Position numbers and translations under genes: made by a program. From a virus, in the IMG/VR virus record IMGVR_UViG_3300010371_000037, positions 1 through 64,000 of that record: a DNA stretch of 64,000 bases; one strand, 5' to 3'. Of this stretch, positions 6,787 to 64,000 are shown piece after piece. The notes below the pieces were generated by a model. That model ran no database searches, was not told the DNA's origin, and saw only the letters and a program-made list of their open reading frames with translations. Within the stretch, counting starts at the first letter, position 1; every line of letters begins with the position of its first letter.

Positions 6787-6794
6787 TATAAATA
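6787..6794 (+). promoter_or_regulatory. T4-consensus late promoter TATAAATA
   Basis: Exact TATAAATA, 55 bases before the major capsid protein start. This is the best match to the T4 late box in the left part of the window and precedes the most abundant virion protein. Confidence 0.65.
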
Positions 6795-12818: not shown

Positions 12819-13449
12819 GAAAAAAGTTGTGAAAAAAGAAGACATAGCTGTTATATCTCTATCCAACCGCATGACCGGAATTGAAGTCACCACAGCGACG
12901 ATAGCTGACGATGTTAAGCATCACCAAGAATCTATTGATAAGTTATCTGAAATCTCGGCTGGTATCAAAGAGATGCTGGCTGCTCAAGAGAACCGCATTC
13001 AAACACAAGAAAATTCAAGCACACTTCTTTATGATCTGGCTGAAAAGCGTCGTGAAGAATATTTGGCTAATGCTGAAAAGGTAAATACCAAATTTGAAAC
13101 TCTTGCTAAAGAGTTACATGGGGTCTTGGAAAAAGTGTCTGAAGAACGTCGCACAGATACAGCTTCTTTGGTCGAGAGCTTTCGTAGGGAGCTTTCACAG
13201 AACAGCAAAGAATTAGAAACATCTGTTGGTCGTGTAGAAAAAGAAGTGCAGAAGTTTGTGATGGAAGAAAGAGAAAATTCTAGACTTAGAAAGGAAGAAG
13301 CCAATAGCACTCACAAAGACTTAGATAAAAGAATAAAGGTACTTGAGCGTTCTAAATGGATTGGTATGGGCATCTTGCTTGTGATAGTTACACTGTTCAA
13401 ATTCATCAACCTGTCTAGCATCATGTTGTTGTTGCAGCATATTCATTGA
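12784..13449 (+). CDS. Coiled-coil protein with C-terminal membrane anchor
   Basis: 221 residues. The basic N-terminus (QQKTRKKVVKKED) is followed by a long coiled coil (about residues 40-190, many Glu/Lys heptads) and a C-terminal membrane helix (WIGMGILLVIVTLFKFI). It is tail-anchored. It overlaps the o-spanin gene by 35 bases and has an AGGA site. Function unknown. The link to the spanin genes suggests an envelope role. Confidence 0.65.
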   Translation: MVKVVTAQQKTRKKVVKKEDIAVISLSNRMTGIEVTTATIADDVKHHQESIDKLSEISAGIKEMLAAQENRIQTQENSSTLLYDLAEKRREEYLANAEKVNTKFETLAKELHGVLEKVSEERRTDTASLVESFRRELSQNSKELETSVGRVEKEVQKFVMEERENSRLRKEEANSTHKDLDKRIKVLERSKWIGMGILLVIVTLFKFINLSSIMLLLQHIH

Positions 13450-13479: not shown

Positions 13480-14499
13480 ATGATATGGCTTGAATGCAAA
13501 TATGCTAACCTTCTGGGTTCTCATCTTGCTCTGTTCAAACAGAGGAAGCATAATCCCTATCTAGCTACTTTCCGCTGTCCAATTTGTGGAGATAGTCAAC
13601 ATAACAAACTGAAGACCAGAGGCTACATCTTTCAGCATTCACAACATTTGTTTGTGTATTGCCATAATTGTAACTATTCTGCTTCTTTCCGCAAATTCCT
13701 GAAACACCAGAACACGTATCTCTATGATGAGTTTGCATTAGAGTTATTCAAAGAGAACGCACATGGTCAGCCTATCACTGAAGTAGAGGAAGTCTTTGCT
13801 ACACCTGTCCCAGTTAAATCAAGAACAGTCGACAAGATGGGTCTATTTGATCTTGTTGTTCCTTCCATTACATCTCCATCTCTAACACATTATCTGAAAC
13901 AAAGGAAAATCCCTGAAAACAAATGGAAACATATCTTTTACACGGATGACTTCCCTCTGTTAGTTAAGAAAGTGTTTCCTGAGAAGTATATTTCAGAAAC
14001 AAAACATCATCGCCTTGTGATACCATTCTATGATCCTTCTGGTAAGGAAGTGGTTGGTATTTGCGCTAGAACTTTACCAGATGCTGATCCAATGACGCAC
14101 AAACGCTACTATTCAATCAGTCATCCTGGTTATCCAAAATTATGGAAACCAAATGATCTAGACTTGACAAAGACTGTGTATGTTACAGAAGGAGTCATGG
14201 ATGGTTTCTTTCTGGACAATGCTGTATCAATGCTCGGTTCCAATATTGATACAGGCGTGTTAAGATCAATGTTCAATGATTTTGTTATGATCTTTGATTG
14301 CGAACCCCGGAACAAGCAGATCGTTGAACAGATGGAAAGAAAAGTTAAAGAAGGTTGTAAGATAGTAGTTTGGAACAACAGAACAAAAGGTAAAGATCTA
14401 AACGAGATGGCGTTGAACAATTATTTTCCAGACTTGAAGAGTAGAACATTTTCTGGATTAGAAGCGCTATTAAATATCACCGCATGGAAAAAGGTTTAA
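13480..14499 (+). CDS. 61: DNA primase, T4 gp61-like
   Basis: 339 residues. The N-terminal zinc ribbon uses Cys33, Cys36, Cys61 and Cys64 (CPICGDS and CHNCNYS). A TOPRIM-like core follows, with VYVTEGVMDGFF (acidic Glu) around residue 232 and FDCEPRNKQ later. The family makes the RNA primers for lagging-strand synthesis together with the gp41 helicase. The helicase is not in this window. It is followed 15 bases later by nrdA with its own AGAAGGTC site. Confidence 0.88.
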   Translation: MIWLECKYANLLGSHLALFKQRKHNPYLATFRCPICGDSQHNKLKTRGYIFQHSQHLFVYCHNCNYSASFRKFLKHQNTYLYDEFALELFKENAHGQPITEVEEVFATPVPVKSRTVDKMGLFDLVVPSITSPSLTHYLKQRKIPENKWKHIFYTDDFPLLVKKVFPEKYISETKHHRLVIPFYDPSGKEVVGICARTLPDADPMTHKRYYSISHPGYPKLWKPNDLDLTKTVYVTEGVMDGFFLDNAVSMLGSNIDTGVLRSMFNDFVMIFDCEPRNKQIVEQMERKVKEGCKIVVWNNRTKGKDLNEMALNNYFPDLKSRTFSGLEALLNITAWKKV

Positions 14500-25464: not shown

Positions 25465-26181
25465 ATGTTCAAAACGATTGAAGAGTGCCAAGTAGAACTC
25501 ATTGCACATACCAAGTCAGATAGAGTCAAACGTGATCCAGTTAATCTACAAAACTATGTGGAGTCAGACATGGATCATTTCCCTGCGCAAGCAGCGAGAG
25601 TCAGCTTTAACAACGATCAGACTGTATATGATGTGCAGAAGGATCAGAAACTTATTAATTATCTTGCAGCGCATGAACACTTAACTCCTTTTGAATACCA
25701 ACATGCTACATTGATGATTGAATGCCCACTGTTTATTCGCAGCCAGATTCATCGCCATCGAACATTCAGCTACAATGAAATCAGTCGTCGTTACACCAGT
25801 GATGATCTTGACTTCTGGATTCCAACAGATTGGCACAAGCAGGCTATCAAAGACAAGCAAGGAAGCGATGGTAACCTTCTAGAAGATGATCAAGATGCAT
25901 TCCTGGACAGTGTTTATAAACAACAGTGCCTGACTGCTCTCGGTATCTACAACATTCTGATTGAGAATGAAGTTGCGCGTGAACAGGCACGTGCAGTTCT
26001 ACCGCAGAGTCTGATGACTCGGTTCTACATGGCCGGCAATTTGAGGAATTGGGCGCACTTCTTGCAATTACGTTTAGACTCTCACGCACAAGCTGAAATT
26101 CAAGTCATCGCGCATAAGTGCCATGTAATCTTGAACGAATTGTGGCCAACATCTTTGTCAGCTCTTATGAAGAAGAAATGA
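25465..26181 (+). CDS. thyX: FAD-dependent thymidylate synthase ThyX
   Basis: 238 residues. The ThyX signature RHRTFSYNEISRRY is exact (residues 97-110). AREQARAVLP and SHAQAEIQ follow as usual. It converts dUMP to dTMP using methylenetetrahydrofolate and FAD. AGGAG 6 bases upstream fixes the start. It works with NrdA and dUTPase in this window. Confidence 0.95.
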   Translation: MFKTIEECQVELIAHTKSDRVKRDPVNLQNYVESDMDHFPAQAARVSFNNDQTVYDVQKDQKLINYLAAHEHLTPFEYQHATLMIECPLFIRSQIHRHRTFSYNEISRRYTSDDLDFWIPTDWHKQAIKDKQGSDGNLLEDDQDAFLDSVYKQQCLTALGIYNILIENEVAREQARAVLPQSLMTRFYMAGNLRNWAHFLQLRLDSHAQAEIQVIAHKCHVILNELWPTSLSALMKKK

Positions 26182-37352: not shown

Positions 37353-37444
37353 ATTTGCGTTGTTGGTTGAAAAGTAGGTGGCGCGAAATTCGTACAGAGA
37401 AGGTCCAGCAGCCAATTGGGATAAGCTCTGGCAACGCAAATTAT

Positions 37445-37514
37445 TGTAGAATGGTAGTAAAGGTGTTGTTTGGCGGCAGGTTGGACGCGGGTTCGATTCC
37501 CGCCCACTCCACCA
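37445..37514 (+). ncRNA. tmRNA acceptor piece (approximate)
   Basis: Holds the 3' strand of P2 (GGTAG at 37453, pairing with CTACC at 37643), the T arm, the 3' acceptor strand and an encoded CCA. The 5' end is not sharply defined. Confidence 0.75.
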
Positions 37515-37600
37515 AAAGCAAATTAGTCACGAAAGGGGAAGGTAAGATCACCGTATCGTAAGAGAAATCCTAGACCCGGTGACGCTAGTTTGTTTTTGAT
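37515..37600 (+). other. Intervening segment joining the two tmRNA halves
   Basis: 86 bases between CCA and GGGG. Its ends can pair (CAAATTAGTCAC with GGTGACGCTAGTTTG), forming a hairpin that would extend the acceptor stem. It would be removed in processing, as in known permuted tmRNAs. Confidence 0.75.
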
Positions 37601-37824
37601 GGGGTGGACATGGCTTCGACAGTCTGGACTGAGGACAAGGCTCTACCCAAGCGTTGAATGTAGGCTTGTAAATCTGAACACTCAAACGTCAAATGCAAAC
37701 GATAATGCATACGATCTAGCCCTAGCGGCCTGATCCCAAGAGTGGCTCCGTCTTGGTTCCTCAACGGAGCATTGAATTAAAGAACCCACAGGGTGATGCA
37801 TTAAATCCTGCGGATGAGAGGAAA
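37601..37824 (+). ncRNA. tmRNA coding piece (approximate 3' end)
   Basis: Starts with the 5' acceptor strand and contains pseudoknot 1, the tag frame and pseudoknot 2. The 3' limit is set just before the terminator stem by inference. Confidence 0.8.
37695..37733 (+). other. tmRNA tag reading frame, ANDNAYDLALAA
   Basis: The resume codon GCA at 37695 is followed by AAC GAT AAT GCA TAC GAT CTA GCC CTA GCG GCC TGA. The tag starts AND and ends LALAA, like bacterial ssrA tags, whose last residues are read by ClpXP and related proteases. Confidence 0.9.
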
Positions 37825-53165: not shown

Positions 53166-55805
53166 ATGACAACTCCTGTTTTTACAGATACTATCCTATA
53201 CACAGTAAACAATGTTTCATATCCCAGATTTGAAGAAGCTTTGGCTGCGTCTCAAAGTCTTTCATTGCCTGTAACTATTACAGCATCTGGTTCTCTTGTT
53301 ATTTCAGATGCAACATCTAATACAACTCCTCCAGCGAACACAACACCAGACCCACCTGTAGCCAATGTGTCATCCAACGTGGTTGCCAGTGTGCATGTGG
53401 TTTGTTCTAACCAAACTGTTACTTTCACGGATCAATCAGTAAGTGCTCTGCCTTTGACATCTGTTACAGTTGGATACGGATTGGGCGGAACTGCTAAGGA
53501 AATCGGAGCTGGTGGTTCAGCTACAAAAGATTATCCAAATCCAGGAACATTTAATGCTGCACTTGTATCCACAGACAGTAGTGGCGTCAAGAGCACAGTT
53601 CTTTTCCGTGTAACAGTGCCCGGAACGAGTGATAATGTTTACACGGCAGGTGCTCCAACATCTCCACCTACTGGTAACACTAGCAGCAACACAAGTAGCA
53701 ATACTGGCGGCACGAGTGGTTCCCCTCCAGTGGCGTCATTTAAGATCACCCAAGATGGTTTGACAGTGACGTTGACCGACACCAGCACTGACAAGGACGC
53801 CGACATTGTTGACGTGGCTGTGAATTGGGGCGATGGCGCATTGGATCCAGATATTGGCAAGGGCGCAGTTGTTTCTCATACATATGCCCAGAATGGATCC
53901 TACACTATCTTAGAATCAGTTGCAGATTCAACAGGAAACACCAGCAAGGTATCTAAGGATGTATATGCAGTTCCTGCTAATACACCTGCGACAGCTGACT
54001 TTGATGTGGTGGTAAACGGACTTGATATCGTAGTGACCGATAAGTCACAACGTGGTAGTGTTCCATTGGCTACCGCCGTATGGCAATGGGGAGATTTCCC
54101 TGGTTCAAGCCCAACAGTGCCGCCAGGTGGTACAATGCGACATGGCTTTGATGTTGCTGGTACTTACCCAGTCATGATGCGAATTTCAGACGCTTCTGGC
54201 AGTGGTGCTGCTGTAACTAAACAAGTCACTGTATCTGGTGTGCGTGCGGCTCCATTAAACATTCCATCACCTGACTCTGTTACAGTGGTGTGGACTCCAG
54301 TAGGTGGTACTCCAATCACCATCAATCCAAAATTGGGCGAATGCGTACCATTCGTTGCTGGAGACCCAACCAAAGGTGGCGCCAAATATTATGCAGATGG
54401 TCTATGTGTAACTCTAGAAAACATGTACGCAGGGACCACTGGTGACTTGTCTGGTCATTTCACTATCACTGCCGCTGGTGTTACCGTATTCGATGGTGAC
54501 CTGACTCTGTATGTTGGAGCTGGTTCACGACCATTCTGGTTACGAACACCAACTTTGGTAACAGACCCAGATCTATCATTGTTCCCTGAATTGGTTGATG
54601 CTCCAACTGCCAGCATGTGGAATTCATACCATGCTGCTGATAATAGTCCAACTGGTTATGGTTGCGATATCTCAGCTATGGGTACTGCTGGTGAACATGC
54701 GCATTTAGGACAACCATATCCTCAGTGGGATGCTTGCCATCGTACCAACCCTAGTGATCAAAATACCGAAGTTGTACTTGGCATGGCTAACGCTTCACGT
54801 GTATGGAGTTCGCATTGGCGTGATATCACTACTGGTCAGATGATTGATGTTACACAGTATCCTAAGATCAGCACCTTGTCAGCATTCCGAGGTATCCAAG
54901 GCAATCCAATTGCACCATATACAACTAGCAATCCAACACAGTTGGGACAAGCGCAAGCTCATGCTACCAACTTCTGTGCATATGCTGCAGTGGTATTCGG
55001 TACTGAATATCACAAAGAGGAGTTGGCGATGTGGAGTAATTACTACTCCGCATTGTGGCAGAACTATGCTTATCGTTTACCTGCTGGTTGTGTAAGTGTA
55101 CAGCATGGTATCGTGCGTGGTAAAGGCCGTGGACTGACTGCATTGGTGTATGCTGCAAAATACTCCAGCAATCCAGCTTACTTTGACAAATGGGTTCTGG
55201 CTATTGCAGCTGATTACAATGCATTCTATCCAGCGCAACAAGGTTTTGCTATTGATCAGACAGCCAAAGGACAAGGATATCCTCATCAGGAATATGCTCC
55301 ATGGCAACAACAAATCCTGATCACGGGTATTGGATTGGCTATGTTGGCTGGTTACAGTGAATTTCAACCGACCTTGGATTATTTCGCTACAGTTGCATTT
55401 GACGCGATCCTAAGCGATGGTGCTCAACCTGTATTGCAACACGAGTTTGCTACTGTGTACAATTCAGGATTGATACGCGCAGATGGTTCAGGTCCTGTCT
55501 CTGACTGGCGTGAAAGTATCAACTTGGCTGGTACTTATGATGCTGCTGTTGCTGCCGCATTGTTGTGTCCAGAAGACTCTGCCGCATTGCAGTCTGCTAA
55601 AGGTGGTGGACAACCAGGTAACTTTATTGGATCACCAACTTCTCCAGTGGGGTATCCTGCTATCGCACGTCCATCATATGCGTTGTTGTTCCGATTTGCT
55701 ACTGACCAAGTGCGCGCACAAGCAGCTGGTCAAAAATTTGAACAATATGATGTAGCTGATTATTCAACCAACCCAAAGTATGGATACAAGTTCATCACTA
55801 AGTAA
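53166..55805 (+). CDS. Tail spike with PKD-like domains and an alpha-toroid-like C-terminal half
   Basis: 879 residues. An N-terminal attachment part and a first Ig/PKD-like domain come first. Two clear PKD-type domains (VNWGDGALDPD...VVSHTYAQNGSYTI and WQWGDFPGSSP...MRHGFDVAGTYPV) follow. The C-terminal about 500 residues are rich in aromatic helices (GRGLTALVYAAKYSSNPAYF, ILITGIGLAMLAGYSEF). That pattern is common in (alpha/alpha) toroid polysaccharide-acting enzymes. Receptor binding or capsule/LPS degradation is likely; no catalytic residues can be named. Own late boxes and terminator. Confidence 0.7.
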   Translation: MTTPVFTDTILYTVNNVSYPRFEEALAASQSLSLPVTITASGSLVISDATSNTTPPANTTPDPPVANVSSNVVASVHVVCSNQTVTFTDQSVSALPLTSVTVGYGLGGTAKEIGAGGSATKDYPNPGTFNAALVSTDSSGVKSTVLFRVTVPGTSDNVYTAGAPTSPPTGNTSSNTSSNTGGTSGSPPVASFKITQDGLTVTLTDTSTDKDADIVDVAVNWGDGALDPDIGKGAVVSHTYAQNGSYTILESVADSTGNTSKVSKDVYAVPANTPATADFDVVVNGLDIVVTDKSQRGSVPLATAVWQWGDFPGSSPTVPPGGTMRHGFDVAGTYPVMMRISDASGSGAAVTKQVTVSGVRAAPLNIPSPDSVTVVWTPVGGTPITINPKLGECVPFVAGDPTKGGAKYYADGLCVTLENMYAGTTGDLSGHFTITAAGVTVFDGDLTLYVGAGSRPFWLRTPTLVTDPDLSLFPELVDAPTASMWNSYHAADNSPTGYGCDISAMGTAGEHAHLGQPYPQWDACHRTNPSDQNTEVVLGMANASRVWSSHWRDITTGQMIDVTQYPKISTLSAFRGIQGNPIAPYTTSNPTQLGQAQAHATNFCAYAAVVFGTEYHKEELAMWSNYYSALWQNYAYRLPAGCVSVQHGIVRGKGRGLTALVYAAKYSSNPAYFDKWVLAIAADYNAFYPAQQGFAIDQTAKGQGYPHQEYAPWQQQILITGIGLAMLAGYSEFQPTLDYFATVAFDAILSDGAQPVLQHEFATVYNSGLIRADGSGPVSDWRESINLAGTYDAAVAAALLCPEDSAALQSAKGGGQPGNFIGSPTSPVGYPAIARPSYALLFRFATDQVRAQAAGQKFEQYDVADYSTNPKYGYKFITK

Positions 55806-57664: not shown

Positions 57665-57924
57665 GGTTTCATCAGTTCAGTGGTGAAATCAATTACAACA
57701 TCTAAATTCTCAATCGTGGCGGCACCTTGCATTTTGATCTTGCCATCAGGTCCGCTGGCACAGAATGAGAAGTCTGAATTGGAATTCTCTCCAACTTCAA
57801 GAATGGCCCAAGCGCCATCTGTTGTATTCCAACACAGGTCCAGAATACCAGCTTCTGTGTCATGGTATTGTTCTGGACTTGGTTCTGAATATTTCCTGCT
57901 CTTGAGATAATCTATCACATTCAT
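57661..57924 (-). CDS. Leftward hypothetical protein
   Basis: 87 residues. NVIDYLKSRKYSEPSPEQYH, acidic beta-rich centre. Coupled to the trypsin-like gene by an ATGA overlap at 57921-57924. The 3' end meets the rightward gene at 57661-57664. Function unknown. Confidence 0.6.
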   Translation of the reverse strand: MNVIDYLKSRKYSEPSPEQYHDTEAGILDLCWNTTDGAWAILEVGENSNSDFSFCASGPDGKIKMQGAATIENLDVVIDFTTELMKP

Positions 57925-58535
57925 TGAATATGTTCCAACTGTTGTGTCGAGAATGACAAAGGATAAGCGCAGGCGAATCCGATGTAATCATGATTGTCAG
58001 ACAGGGAGGCTATACAAGTGATGGTTGTGATGATTTCTCCTTGTTGATTGAAAATAGCTGAACCAGAGTCCCCATAGAAACTTGGTAGTTGAAACATCAT
58101 CATTACTGCGCGTGATCCTACATGTGATAGTCCTGAATACACACCAGTCCTATACAACTGATCCAAACGCCCAGGAGCGCCAGCGATAAACACTTCCTGA
58201 CCCAATTGTAAAGGTTGTTGACTAATACTAGCCCAGTTCTTAAAAGTGTATCCCAAAATAACGATCACATGATCTTTGGTATCATATGTTTTATGCTTAA
58301 CGGGTACAACTTTGTCTTTGGAATCCACAGCAAGTGAAGAAGTGTTCTTGTCAACACAATGAGATGCGGTTAATATAGTATGAGGTCCAACTGCAACAGA
58401 ATTACAATCACTGCCGTCAGCAAACCAGATTTGATGTGTCACAGATATCAATGAAACAGGGAAGTCTGCTCTCTGTTGAATTGAACAGCATGAACATAAC
58501 AAAAGTAGCAGTATAGCTATCAACAACTTCTTCAT
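57921..58535 (-). CDS. Trypsin-like serine protease lipoprotein
   Basis: 204 residues on the minus strand. Signal MKKLLIAILLLLLCSC with lipobox LCSC, so the mature protein is likely lipid-anchored. Chymotrypsin-fold triad: His59 in LTASHCV, Asp in KDHVIVIL and Ser in SFYGDSGSAIF. It would act in the periplasm or at the outer membrane. A late box on the minus strand lies at 58561-58567. Confidence 0.82.
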   Translation of the reverse strand: MKKLLIAILLLLLCSCCSIQQRADFPVSLISVTHQIWFADGSDCNSVAVGPHTILTASHCVDKNTSSLAVDSKDKVVPVKHKTYDTKDHVIVILGYTFKNWASISQQPLQLGQEVFIAGAPGRLDQLYRTGVYSGLSHVGSRAVMMMFQLPSFYGDSGSAIFNQQGEIITTITCIASLSDNHDYIGFACAYPLSFSTQQLEHIQ

Positions 58536-58560
58536 GGTTGTTCCCTATTCAAGCCAAAAT

Positions 58561-58567
58561 TATTTAG
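58561..58567 (-). promoter_or_regulatory. Leftward late promoter box (CTAAATA on minus strand)
   Basis: TATTTAG on the plus strand, 26 bases upstream of the leftward protease start. Confidence 0.45.
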
Positions 58568-58613
58568 TTTAGTAAAAAAATTGTCAATACATGCAGCATT
58601 TTTTGAATTCACC

Positions 58614-58621
58614 TATAAATA
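58614..58621 (+). promoter_or_regulatory. Consensus late box TATAAATA before the RNA cluster
   Basis: Exact TATAAATA. Together with the palindromic promoter at 58641 it could give both early and late transcription of the RNA cluster. Confidence 0.45.
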
Positions 58622-58640
58622 GAATACTCGCGAGCTGTCA

Positions 58641-58682
58641 TTTATCATCCGTTAATAAATTTTCATCAAACACGGGTATAAT
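58641..58682 (+). promoter_or_regulatory. Palindromic-type promoter of the RNA cluster
   Basis: TTTATCATCCGTTAAT, 20 bases, TATAAT at 58677-58682. The expected start is near 58689, just before the first RNA hairpin. Confidence 0.72.
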
Positions 58683-58688
58683 AGTCCT

Positions 58689-59514
58689 CGTGTTAAGGGT
58701 TAAAGCGAAATGCTGAACCCAGCTGTAAAATTCAAGCTACTTTGAAAACTGATCAAATTTCACTTGTCCACTCGCAAGAGTGGACATTAGAAAGGGTTCG
58801 CCGATATTAGAGCTGATAACTGAACACGACTAGCAAATCGATTCAGGAATAAGCTGCTCGGCTAGGAGGAATCTGGAAACAGAAATACCAGCGGATGAAT
58901 CCTTTCTAATGTATATGGGTGTCAGGGAGAGGTCTCCCACGCAGTCTGTAAAACTGCTGCCTCACAAGGGCAATCTAGGATCGTTACCTAGGGCACCCAC
59001 CAATTTATGGCCTGAAAGCTTGTAAGTCCATGCCGAATTACAACATGGCGTTGAAAACGTAAGCGGGAGAATGGCCCGCCAAGGCAACCAAATGCAGTAA
59101 ATGTAACAGTGCTGGATGAACGGCTAAGTCGCCCCATTAAAGGGGAGATCCTAGGTTCGAGTCCTAGGGAATAACACTGATAACATTTGCTGAAGTCAGA
59201 GGATAATGGATGGCCGTCCGGCATCCTCTGGCGGATCTATCTGGATCACAAGAGGGTAGCGGCACAGATAAACCGTCCTGGCGTGATCCTGTTCTTTGCT
59301 CATTGTAAGATGTAAATGAGCTATATCGGTGAGGTTTGCTGCAATCTCACACGTGACCTAAACTGGCAGCATTTAAGTAAAGTTGATGTATCTGGACCTC
59401 GAGACGGAACATAGCAAAATCTGTGTTCAAATAGAATGACCGGATAGCGCCGGATCACGGGGTAGAACGTTACCAGATGGGAGCTGAGCATCTCATAAAA
59501 CTGCTCTTGAATTT
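58689..59514 (+). ncRNA. Large structured non-coding RNA, GOLLD-like candidate
   Basis: About 0.83 kb without coding sense and full of long helices. GGGTT/AACCC (58697). TGTCCACTC-GCAA-GAGTGGACA (58765-58786). ACATTAGAAAGG/CCTTTCTAATGT (58784, 58901) closing a branched domain. GCGGG/CCCGC (59073). A 16-bp helix 59095-59111 with 59175-59192 enclosing CCTAGG-TTCGAGT-CCTAGG. CAGAGGAT/ATCCTCTG (59197, 59223). GGATCAC/GTGATCC (59243, 59283). GCTCATT/AATGAGC (59298, 59315). GAACATAG/CTGTGTTC (59406, 59421). tRNA-Tyr lies inside. Size, phage origin and tRNA neighbours recall GOLLD RNA. The ends are guesses. Confidence 0.65.
58917..59002 (+). tRNA. tRNA-Tyr (GTA)
   Basis: Acceptor GGGTGTC/GGCACCC, anticodon loop CTGTAAA in stem GCAGT/ACTGC, long class II variable arm as expected for Tyr, T stem CTAGG/CCTAG, encoded CCA. 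The T loop ATCGTTA is not the usual TTCRANN. Confidence 0.85.
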
Positions 59515-59587
59515 GGGGCGTGAGCAGATGGCGAGCAACCGCACTGTCTATGCGGTGAAAGGGTTTCGAATACCCTACGTCCCGCCA
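59515..59587 (+). tRNA. tRNA-Asp (GTC)
   Basis: Acceptor GGGGCGT/ACGTCCC, anticodon loop CTGTCTA in CCGCA/TGCGG, T arm AGGGT-TTCGAAT-ACCCT, G73 (the Asp determinant) and encoded CCA. Confidence 0.92.
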
Positions 59588-59596
59588 AATTGAGGT

Positions 59597-59668
59597 GGCA
59601 CTTGTCTCTTCAGACAGAGCTCCTGAATGTGAGACAATGAGTTGGGATCAGAGAATCCGCGAACTCAA
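59597..59668 (+). ncRNA. Two hairpins between tRNA-Asp and tRNA-Glu
   Basis: TTGTCTC...GAGACAA with inner TTCAG/CTGAA, followed by TGAGTT...AACTCA with inner GGAT/ATCC. No gene here; may be processing signals or a small RNA. Confidence 0.4.
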
Positions 59669-59721
59669 CACAATTTATGTGCGCACCCGCCAGCTTTTAG
59701 AGTGGTCTAGGTAGCGGCAAT

Positions 59722-59796
59722 GAACCACGACGCAGCTGGTGTGGCGGAGAGGCTTTCACCCTCTTGAGATGGGATCGAAACCCATGTGGTTCTCCA
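59722..59796 (+). tRNA. tRNA-Glu (TTC)
   Basis: Acceptor GAACCAC/GTGGTTC, anticodon loop CTTTCAC in AGAGG/CCTCT, T arm ATGGG-ATCGAAA-CCCAT, encoded CCA. Confidence 0.88.
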
Positions 59797-59885
59797 ATTT
59801 TTGTAAAAGTTGTAGTATACTTGAAAGAATTCAGTGGGCGCATCCTCGGCTCCTACAAATTGTTGCACACAGAGAATCAATTTAA

Positions 59886-59963
59886 CGGAGTGTAGCTCAG
59901 TCTGGCTAGAGCATCTGCTTTGGGAGCAGAGGGTCGCAGGTTCGAATCCTGTTTCTCCGACCA
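59886..59963 (+). tRNA. tRNA-Pro (TGG)
   Basis: Begins with C as Pro tRNAs do. Anticodon loop TTTGGGA in TCTGC/GCAGA, T loop TTCGAAT, encoded CCA. One mismatch in the acceptor stem. Confidence 0.9.
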
Positions 59964-60094: not shown

Positions 60095-60130
60095 CCTTTG
60101 AACCGGAACTTGTATTGATGGAGAAGAACT

Positions 60131-60204
60131 GGGCTGCAAGCATTAAAGTGATGCAGCGGGCCTTTAACCCGCAGAACAGAGAGCGTTACTCTGGCGGCCC
60201 ACCA
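60131..60204 (+). tRNA. tRNA with anticodon-loop CCTTTAA (TTT by position, C33)
   Basis: Acceptor GGGCTGC/GCGGCCC, D stem GCAT/ATGC, anticodon stem GCGGG/CCCGC, T arm CAGAG-AGCGTTA-CTCTG, encoded CCA. C33 and the T loop are unusual. Lys by position. Confidence 0.7.
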
Positions 60205-60228
60205 AATATGCAGCAGAGGAGAATTGCC

Positions 60229-60651: not shown

Positions 60652-60726
60652 GGGGATTGTAGTTCAATGGTAGAATCTCCGGCTGTGAACCGGAAGACTC
60701 AAGATCGATACTTGACTTTCCCCCCA
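60652..60726 (+). tRNA. tRNA-His (GTG)
   Basis: Anticodon loop CTGTGAA in TCCGG/CCGGA. The extra 5' G (G-1) faces C73, the His hallmark. T arm TCAAG-ATCGATA-CTTGA, encoded CCA. Confidence 0.88.
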
Positions 60727-60732
60727 ATTTAT

Positions 60733-60806
60733 GGGTCTGTAGCTCAAAGGTAGAGCAGAGAGCTGTTAACTCTCCGACCAGGGATCATTACCCTGCTGGC
60801 CCGCCA
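60733..60806 (+). tRNA. tRNA-Asn (GTT)
   Basis: Acceptor GGGTCTG/CTGGCCC, D stem GCTC/GAGC, anticodon loop CTGTTAA in GAGAG/CTCTC, T stem CAGGG/CCCTG, G73, CCA. T loop ATCATTA is unusual. Confidence 0.9.
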
Positions 60807-60886: not shown

Positions 60887-61043
60887 TATTTATAGAATGG
60901 ACGTGCATAACGTCCAATAGCAGGTTGAGTCTTGAAAACTCCTTTGCCTGCGAGTTTGTCAACTGACTTGACGGAAAGTTGATGAGCGATTAGTCAATGA
61001 AATTCAACTGCGTCAACAGATGAATGAATTGACTCATTATTTT
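60887..61043 (+). ncRNA. Structured non-coding stretch between tRNA-Lys and tRNA-Ala
   Basis: Helices TGGACGT/ACGTCCA (about 60898), TCAACT/AGTTGA (about 60959) and a two-part helix AGTCAAT...ATTGACT with ATTCA/TGAAT (about 60993-61032). No reading frame of note. A small RNA or spacer of unknown role. Confidence 0.4.
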
Positions 61044-61513: not shown

Positions 61514-61591
61514 AATTTCATGTATCAGTCCCAGTTAATACGTTAGGCTGATTTAATTCCTAGGTCGGTGTAGGAGCATGAAAAATACAAT

Positions 61592-61681
61592 GGAGAATGA
61601 AGCAGAGCGGCCTCTGCCACCGCCTTGAAAGCGGATGGTCCGGGAAACCGGATGGTGATCGACACAGCCCGTTCTCCGCCA
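61592..61681 (+). tRNA. tRNA-Ser (TGA)
   Basis: Acceptor GGAGAAT/GTTCTCC, anticodon loop CTTGAAA in CCGC/GCGG, long variable arm with TCCGG/CCGGA, G73, CCA. The T arm is irregular (ATCGACA loop). Confidence 0.85.
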
Positions 61682-63447: not shown

Positions 63448-63672
63448 ATGTCTTATGCAACTGGCTCCAAAGAAAACTTCATCACTGTGACCAAAGGAAT
63501 GTCTGGCAACTTCGCCGTCATGTTCTGGTGGAATCCTGATCTTGGCGGTTTCTGGGAACCTTGGACAACTGGTTTTGGTCGTTATGAAACCCAGAAGGAA
63601 GCCATTCAAGAAGGAATTGCATGGGCTGAAGCTGAAGAACTTGAATTTGTTGAACCATCCAAAATTGCTTAA
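63448..63672 (+). CDS. Hypothetical protein
   Basis: 74 residues after GAGGAGAACACC. Trp/Gly rich first half (AVMFWWNPDLGGFWEPW), then an acidic helix (EAIQEGIAWAEAEELEF). Function unknown. Confidence 0.6.
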   Translation: MSYATGSKENFITVTKGMSGNFAVMFWWNPDLGGFWEPWTTGFGRYETQKEAIQEGIAWAEAEELEFVEPSKIA

Positions 63673-64000
63673 CCCAGAATCGCCGACTAATAGGCAGGAT
63701 CTGAAGCAATTTGATGTGTAAACCACTAATGAAGTTAGGCAAATCCTGCTTCTGACCTGTGGGTATCGGAGATGAGGTTCATCCGAACATTTTTGTTGTA
63801 TGGTGAGCTTTGTAGGCTAAATATGCTGATGAACGCGGAGACTTAGCGGCTTGATTCTACTCGGGTGTGGCAGCATTGTAGTGCACTATGATGCAACGAT
63901 TGATCATCGTGACTGTTCGTGGGTTTGACTCCCACCATCGGCTTCTACAAAGATAGCAGTTACATGGAGTGACTGAGGGAATAACACGAGGCGCAATTGC
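63673..64000 (+). ncRNA. Structured non-coding region at the window end
   Basis: No gene seen. GCAGGAT...ATCCTGC encloses about 45 bases (from about 63692). ACGAT/ATCGT at about 63897 and a T-arm-like GTGGG-TTTGACT-CCCAC at about 63923 follow, but no full tRNA can be folded. The region runs on beyond the window. Confidence 0.4.

Follow-up and report, generated by a model that had tools for sequence, protein, structure and literature searches.

The stretch described here lies in IMG/VR record G000 (67,441 bases), a fragment of a T4-type phage that encodes a major head protein, a head scaffold, an RNA ligase, a polynucleotide kinase and a single-strand binding protein. The window, that is, the whole stretch of DNA that we analysed, comprises the first 64,000 bases of this record. 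Among the 80 viral contigs kept, the closest matches to its major head protein show 64–66% identity, and hence the phage has no close relative in this set. A tRNA array begins at 58917 and continues to the record's end; a gene-free stretch stands at its head. Upstream of this stretch, and directed away from it, is a gene for a trypsin-like protease (57921–58535, minus strand; Trypsin_2, E 7e-12; phrog_9683) whose product has, on inspection, a lipoprotein-like N terminus. An 879-residue protein encoded at 53166–55805 contains a PKD domain (PF18911, E 1.3e-18); it had no PHROG match. Neither protein had a relative in the viral contigs scanned. The phage also carries a permuted, two-piece tmRNA (37422–37824) with the tag ANDNAYDLALAA, and another of this permuted kind, with the tag ANDDTFEVRLAA, is found in a relative, G004. 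An ORF within the array (65475–66109, or L089:7876–8510) has weak similarity to a C2H2 zinc finger and to phage endonuclease I, in each case below the Pfam cut-offs, and possibly encodes a homing endonuclease.

Between the promoter and tRNA-Asp is an ORF-free region of about 0.83 kb that holds no convincing gene when ORFs of at least 40 residues are considered. The longest plus-strand ORF has 42 residues; the longest on the minus strand has 78, begins at TTG, extends into tRNA-Tyr and is without a Pfam match. An initial annotation of this DNA had described a gene-free stretch behind a promoter, with a tRNA-Tyr embedded in it and a tRNA-Asp following, and on these points it is borne out (Table 1).

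The TATAAT of the promoter (58677–58682) is preceded, exactly 25 nt upstream, by TTAA. This arrangement occurs at nine plus-strand sites in the record, against 0.07 expected from 30 dinucleotide shuffles. Several of these sites have a longer motif, TTTAACATCCGTTAA, which contains the inverted repeat TTAAC-N4-GTTAA; the copy at 58677 reads TTTATCATCCGTTAA. The family suggests a dedicated activator or a sigma-like factor, and transcription would start at about 58688–58690. The repeat AACACGGG/CTCGTGTT is a candidate operator or, given an upstream start, a candidate hairpin; it flanks TATAAT, and the RNA hairpin is possible only with transcription from upstream. Farther upstream lies TATAAATA, an exact match to the T4 late promoter consensus. 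This motif is not enriched (five copies on both strands of the record, about 6.7 expected), and its copy at 6787 stands directly before the major head protein gene, with the scaffold gene on its other side. The promoter had been called early-type. The family statistics uphold it as a promoter, but the early class is uncertain, since the family could be early or middle and a late motif lies close by.

Table 1. Positions of the promoters, RNA elements and tRNAs of the stretch, with the record's promoter family and the spacers of the G004 array.
Feature	Position	Strand	Basis or remark
Candidate T4-type late promoter motif TATAAATA	58614..58621	+	exact match, 63 nt upstream of TATAAT
Phage promoter, TTTATCATCCGTTAA ... 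TATAAT	58641..58682	+	repeated family, TTAA 25 nt before TATAAT
Promoter family, TATAAT sites	20406, 26261, 29960, 36523, 55919, 58677, 61155, 63205, 66234	+	
Inverted repeat AACACGGG/CTCGTGTT	58669..58694	+	flanks TATAAT
Leader hairpin GGGUU/AACCC	58697..58720	+	fold only
9-bp hairpin with GCAA (GNRA) loop	58765..58786	+	fold and helix analysis
5' domain, 17-bp closing helix 58784–58800/58896–58912	58784..58912	+	58785–58911 z −6.0
tRNA-Tyr (GTA), complete, encoded CCA, unusual T-loop ATCGTTA	58917..59002	+	
Linker	59003..59091	+	structure not above chance, z −0.02, 54/100 shuffles as good
tRNA-derived module	59095..59192	+	59090–59192 z −5.7; canonical T-arm 59150–59168 plus two further arms
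10-bp hairpin	59195..59232	+	stretch 59192–59260 z −2.5
Weakly supported 3' domain	59236..59481	+	59236–59244/59473–59481, 59282–59289/59452–59459, two inner hairpins
tRNA-Asp (GTC), end of the stretch	59515..59587	+	
Structured ORF-free spacers of G004, candidate further RNAs	L088:10484–10800, 12855–13193, 14114–14447	-	

Folding energies were judged against shuffled sequences and against a background of 100 windows of 140 nt (mean z −0.21, s.d. 1.08; three of them at z −3.1 to −3.5) and 20 windows of 300 nt (mean z −0.42, minimum −2.47). The whole 874 nt, tRNA-Tyr included, folds at −290.8 kcal/mol compared with −244±9 kcal/mol for shuffled sequences (z −5.1; none of 20 shuffles as good). 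Leader and 5' domain together (58627–58916, without the tRNA) also have a z of −5.1, with 0 of 100 shuffles as good. Once tRNA-Tyr is set aside, the folding signal consists of two islands, 58785–58911 (z −6.0) and 59090–59192 (z −5.7), neither of which was equalled by any of 100 shuffles. In 58689–59514 the longest helix is of 17 bp, and none of 100 shuffles yielded one longer than 15 bp. At least nine long helices had been counted initially. Those named exist, but the count itself is little above chance: there are 11 helices of at least 9 bp (mean 7 and maximum 11 in 15 shuffles) and five of at least 10 bp (mean 1.7, maximum 4). The ornate structure attributed to the whole region is present in the 5' domain and the module and not throughout, the linker being at chance and the last 270 nt (59240–59514) reaching only z −1.9, a value that 7 of 100 shuffles matched. 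The observation of an ornate structured RNA region is therefore partly confirmed; the structure is real but uneven.

Two elements of the 5' part had been singled out earlier. The GNRA-capped 9-bp hairpin exists as described. The helix closing the domain exists as well, with 17 bp, two of them G-U, rather than the 12 bp first assigned to it. This helix opens with the three bases on which the GNRA hairpin ends, so that helix and hairpin compete for the bases common to both. Inside the domain, two inner loops, CUAGC (58830–58834) and GCUAG (58861–58865), could on inspection form a putative kissing interaction.

The T54–A58 pair of the tRNA T-loop is nearly universal. Position 54 is not T in 7 of the 20 tRNAs called in the array (Tyr ATCGTTA, Asn ATCATTA, Ile ATCGTTC and others). 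Those listed with the departure are at 58917–59002, 59722–59796, 60653–60726, 60733–60806 and L089:8524–8597, with further ones at L100:782–863 and in L107. Among 308 tRNAs from 19 loci, 20 are without T54 and 10 combine A54 with T58; for T4 tRNAs the count is 0 of 8. Loss of T54, or the A54–T58 swap, is possibly an adaptation against host enzymes that modify or cut tRNAs.

Downstream of the linker, the module is enclosed by a stem of 10+4 bp (59095–59104/59183–59192 and 59107–59110/59176–59179) that takes the place of an acceptor stem. What had been reported as a 16-bp helix around a T-arm-like hairpin is thus accurate for the hairpin (59150–59168) and for the presence of an enclosing stem, but not for 16 uninterrupted pairs. 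Similarity to tRNAs was assessed for nine segments against 332 tRNAs, with 30 shuffles each, and only 59105–59182 and a separate segment, 60128–60205, outscored all of their shuffles, unlike the remaining seven. For 59105–59182 the best match was to Pseudomonas phage tRNA-Tyr, with a score of 23.5, while its shuffles averaged 15.0 and reached at most 17.5 (z 6.6); both Pseudomonas phage tRNA-Tyr had entered the comparison set through a blastn match to the module's T-arm itself (E=6). With those two removed, the best score is 19.5, to a tRNA-Asp of L104, which still exceeds all 30 shuffles. Hence 'tRNA-derived' is a firmer description of the module than 'Tyr-derived'. Neither ARAGORN nor RF00005 called a tRNA at 59095–59192, where a cloverleaf with a 7-bp acceptor stem was not found. 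A permuted or split tRNA at 59092–59192 is likewise not supported, no 5' acceptor strand being seen on inspection of the sequence.

In the comparison with the 332 tRNAs, leader, 5' domain and linker showed no similarity, nor did three segments from the 3' part. The initial annotation had named decayed tRNA copies without a joint transcript as one finding that would speak against it. Within the stretch only 59105–59182 is tRNA-like, and because no more than this 100-nt module resembles tRNAs, decay of tRNA genes does not explain most of the region. Elsewhere in the array, 60128–60205 is a tRNA that ARAGORN and RF00005 left uncalled; it is nearest to tRNA-Lys (score 36, z 10.5), has the T-loop AGCGTTA and, by inspection, has C in place of U33. 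Positions 61590–61675, which by eye resembled a Ser-like tRNA, did not score above shuffles in the comparison with 332 tRNAs.

Structure in the other spacers of the G000 array varies widely. The gene-free spacer between tRNA-Lys and tRNA-Ala (60887–61043, 157 nt) gave z −6.3 (0 of 100 shuffles as good) and, on repetition, z −4.7 (0 of 200). Beyond the window, at 64688–65005 (L089:7089–7406), is a 318-nt element with a closing helix of 22 nt that is 95% complementary and a T-arm-like hairpin near its 3' end; 64685–65010 has z −4.9, with 0 of 40 shuffles as good. The likeness of this element to 63660–64028, a segment that does not itself fold above chance, was the best of 406 spacer comparisons (z 5.7, 20 shuffles). 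As a structured element, 63670–63955 was rejected (z −1.05; 6 of 40 shuffles as good). Matches to the tRNA model of 97–123 nt, with insertions in the tRNA body, occur at 64249–64345, 64401–64509 and 66742–66864, the second of them below the family cut-off.

The region had been proposed to be GOLLD-like. Two reports place GOLLD loci in phage or prophage tRNA arrays, give them a length of about 0.8 kb or more and describe a tRNA or pseudo-tRNA inside them (PMC12286853, PMC6582537); the former also describes a universally conserved 3' region and one GOLLD RNA that forms a 14-mer cage (PMC12286853). The present locus is similar in its phage location near tRNA genes, its ORF-free region of about 0.83 kb and its internal tRNA, but differs in that no model matched, no conserved 3' region was found and the tRNA-Tyr is complete. 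In a permissive cmscan of 58500–59900, the Rfam models of GOLLD, ROOL, OLE and HEARO gave no match at E≤10, and the GOLLD identity is not upheld. All Rfam matches to E=10 in this interval fell below cut-off, the best being tRNA-Sec on a genuine tRNA-Glu; among the tmRNA models, alpha_tmRNA reached 14.3 bits against a cut-off of 50. The best GOLLD (RF02032) match in the whole record was 5.5 bits, on the other strand at 25665–25710. Across 25 records the GOLLD model had no match at E≤1, and a further search to E≤10 gave nothing relevant, the records searched containing no GOLLD positive control; in 31 further loci, GOLLD was not among the matches listed. ROOL (RF03087) was absent from the record, whereas its two positive controls, Lactobacillus phage Lb338-1 (3.4e-50) and Enterococcus phage EF24C (1.1e-62), were matched. 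The locus is like ROOL in being large, in a phage and near tRNAs, but not by the covariance model.

The bacterial Y RNA YrlA has a tRNA-like head on a long stem made by both ends of the molecule. The module shares a tRNA-like head on a long stem, but YrlA (RF02553) had no match in 58500–59900 to E=10. Phage ICP1 produces an abundant large non-coding RNA from an ORF-less region of about 0.8 kb, and phage K one that is abundant and adjoins tRNA genes; both were likened by their authors to GOLLD and ROOL (PMC7567579, PMC9241854). ICP1 gave no match to GOLLD, to ROOL or to covariance models of our 5' domain and tRNA-like module. Expression was demonstrated for the ICP1 and phage K RNAs; that of the G000 stretch is predicted.

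Searches for relatives of the stretch itself returned little. Against phages and plasmids, the blastn hits were confined to pieces of tRNA and to short matches of low significance. When the 5' domain and the module were made into covariance models and run over 37 loci and 32 records, each model recovered the window's own copies and otherwise matches of E 0.38 or worse; the better matches of the module model were ordinary tRNAs. A 22-mer of tRNA-Tyr had no match. A 17-mer of the same gene was present in 32 stretches, none of which was matched by either RNA half at E≤0.05. Of two 16-mers from the 3' part, one had two chance-looking matches and the other none. Scans of viral contigs with the protease, with the PKD protein and for the loop pattern found no relative of the locus. 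No description of this RNA was recognised from titles or abstract openings in the literature covered, which takes in only a minority of subscription journals.

The tRNA cluster of T4 offers a closer parallel in setting. It carries RNAC and RNAD, annotated small stable RNAs that two papers describe as late RNAs without known function (PMC9697503, PMC3014915); a mutation in the RNAD region arose during laboratory evolution of a T4-like phage, as a third paper relates (PMC12685909). In T4 RNAC a canonical T-arm lies close to the 3' end and the fold has a z of −4.4; RNAD (z −0.9) is not folded above chance. The G000 stretch and these RNAs share a place within a T4-type phage's tRNA cluster, and RNAC, with its T-arm and above-chance fold, recalls the module (59092–59192). 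The G000 RNA differs in standing at the head of the array, in its greater length and in the module stem that substitutes for an acceptor, and no sequence similarity is supported. In 22 comparisons testing homology, rnaD against 59192–59514 was once unequalled by 100 shuffles, which is not significant at that number, and the T4 record had no match to the covariance models of 5' domain or module. In G004, which has 33 tRNA matches at E≤0.001, we compared ORF-free spacers only, with coding stretches as controls. Three such spacers of its tRNA array have z −4.7 to −4.9 (0 of 60 shuffles each), against −0.5 to −2.6 for six coding stretches; the lowest of these controls, at z −2.6, falls below the mean of the window's own background. 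Structured spacers may thus be a habit of the arrays of this lineage, as seen in two genomes.

Whether the stretch gives one RNA or several turns on pairing across tRNA-Tyr. The best duplex between 58627–58916 and 59003–59514 was equalled or bettered by shuffled partners in 61 of 100 trials, and that between the two ends was equalled in 54 of 100. By partition function, about 73 pairs form in the 5' part, 30 in the tRNA-like module and 91 in 59192–59514, with about 13 joining the 5' part to 59192–59514. A single molecule of about 0.83 kb, as first proposed, is accordingly not borne out. Nor does it follow that the stretch, if not GOLLD, is a new large class: no relative was found, and there is no special pairing across tRNA-Tyr. 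The original interpretation is thus upheld in part: the structured gene-free region, the phage promoter, the tRNA array and the embedded tRNA stand, and with the tRNA-derived module they make up a setting also reported for GOLLD and ROOL, but the GOLLD identity does not stand.

Our preferred reading, held tentatively and at somewhat less than even probability, is that the stretch forms a phage tRNA operon's leader together with its first spacer, and that it encodes separately folding RNAs, not one giant RNA, with a role like that of RNAC and RNAD. The lack of excess joining pairs, together with a complete tRNA-Tyr that has an encoded CCA, favours separate pieces without proving them. Also in favour are the two strong folding islands, kept apart by a complete tRNA and an unstructured linker, the promoter family, the tRNA-like module (59105–59182), the presence of RNAC and RNAD in the T4 tRNA cluster and the structured spacers of G004. 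Counting against it are the lack of supported similarity to RNAC and RNAD, the chance-level folding of RNAD and the late motif that is not enriched. On this reading, transcription would proceed from the promoter at 58641–58682, and later perhaps also from the late site at 58614, through tRNA-Tyr and tRNA-Asp, both of which RNase P would excise. Two products would remain: a 5' RNA (about 0.23 kb) with the 17-bp domain as its core, and a spacer RNA (about 0.51 kb) with the module and hairpins. Both would be stable RNAs acting like T4 RNAC and RNAD, and the 5' domain may protect and delimit the precursor.

Possible, but on the unlikely side, is one large and ornate RNA of a new kind, about 0.8 kb long, in which 5' domain, tRNA-Tyr in the linker, tRNA-like module and 3' domain cooperate, perhaps as a multimer in the manner of GOLLD or ROOL. 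The z of the whole region and the promoter immediately upstream agree with it, as do the size, tRNA array and internal pseudo-tRNA, which fit published GOLLD loci, and the fact that no Rfam family fits. Since GOLLD RNAs can also contain tRNAs, the embedded tRNA does not exclude it. Against it, the joining pairs are not above chance, the linker is unstructured and the 3' part weak; tRNA-Tyr is complete and would be excised; and a second copy was found nowhere searched. Less is to be said for a plain spacer, whose hairpins and decayed tRNA copy would stabilize or space tRNA precursors without a function in trans. It is true that the module derives from a tRNA and has no acceptor stem, that structure is weak over much of the spacer and that the array's other spacers vary widely. 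But the 14-bp stem of the module and the 17-bp 5' domain lie beyond all shuffles, and the 5' domain, linker and 3' part are without tRNA similarity and hence not decayed tRNAs, which makes this explanation improbable. A diverged GOLLD or ROOL RNA missed by the Rfam models would suit the place, the length and the embedded tRNA-like element, but is very improbable given the empty permissive cmscan, the ROOL controls that did match and a universally conserved GOLLD 3' region that the model should find, a point weakened by the absence of a GOLLD positive control from the records searched.

Under the preferred reading of separately folding RNAs, the likeliest role, by inference, would be tRNA mimicry, in which the module could occupy host enzymes cutting or processing tRNAs; we propose this because of its closeness to tRNA-Tyr and its place behind the phage's own tRNA-Tyr. 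The order of the array, tRNA-Tyr first and then a Tyr-like module, suggests a supplement plus a mimic. Two host systems, Septu and retron-Eco7, cleave tRNA-Tyr, and both are countered by a phage-encoded tRNA-Tyr (PMC13096335). It is a more doubtful idea that the stretch represents a new class of large phage RNA, first in its tRNA operon, with a functional tRNA-Tyr in the linker and a tRNA-Tyr-derived module on a 14-bp stem, whose tRNA-like parts would counter tRNA-cutting defences of the host by holding, shielding or imitating tRNAs. GOLLD, ROOL, the RNAs of ICP1 and phage K, and RNAC and RNAD are all intergenic phage RNAs, mostly near tRNA genes and without known function. The G000 locus pairs both size classes, setting a tRNA-derived module beside a larger domain that is not tRNA-like, and the array of its relative has structured gene-free spacers too.
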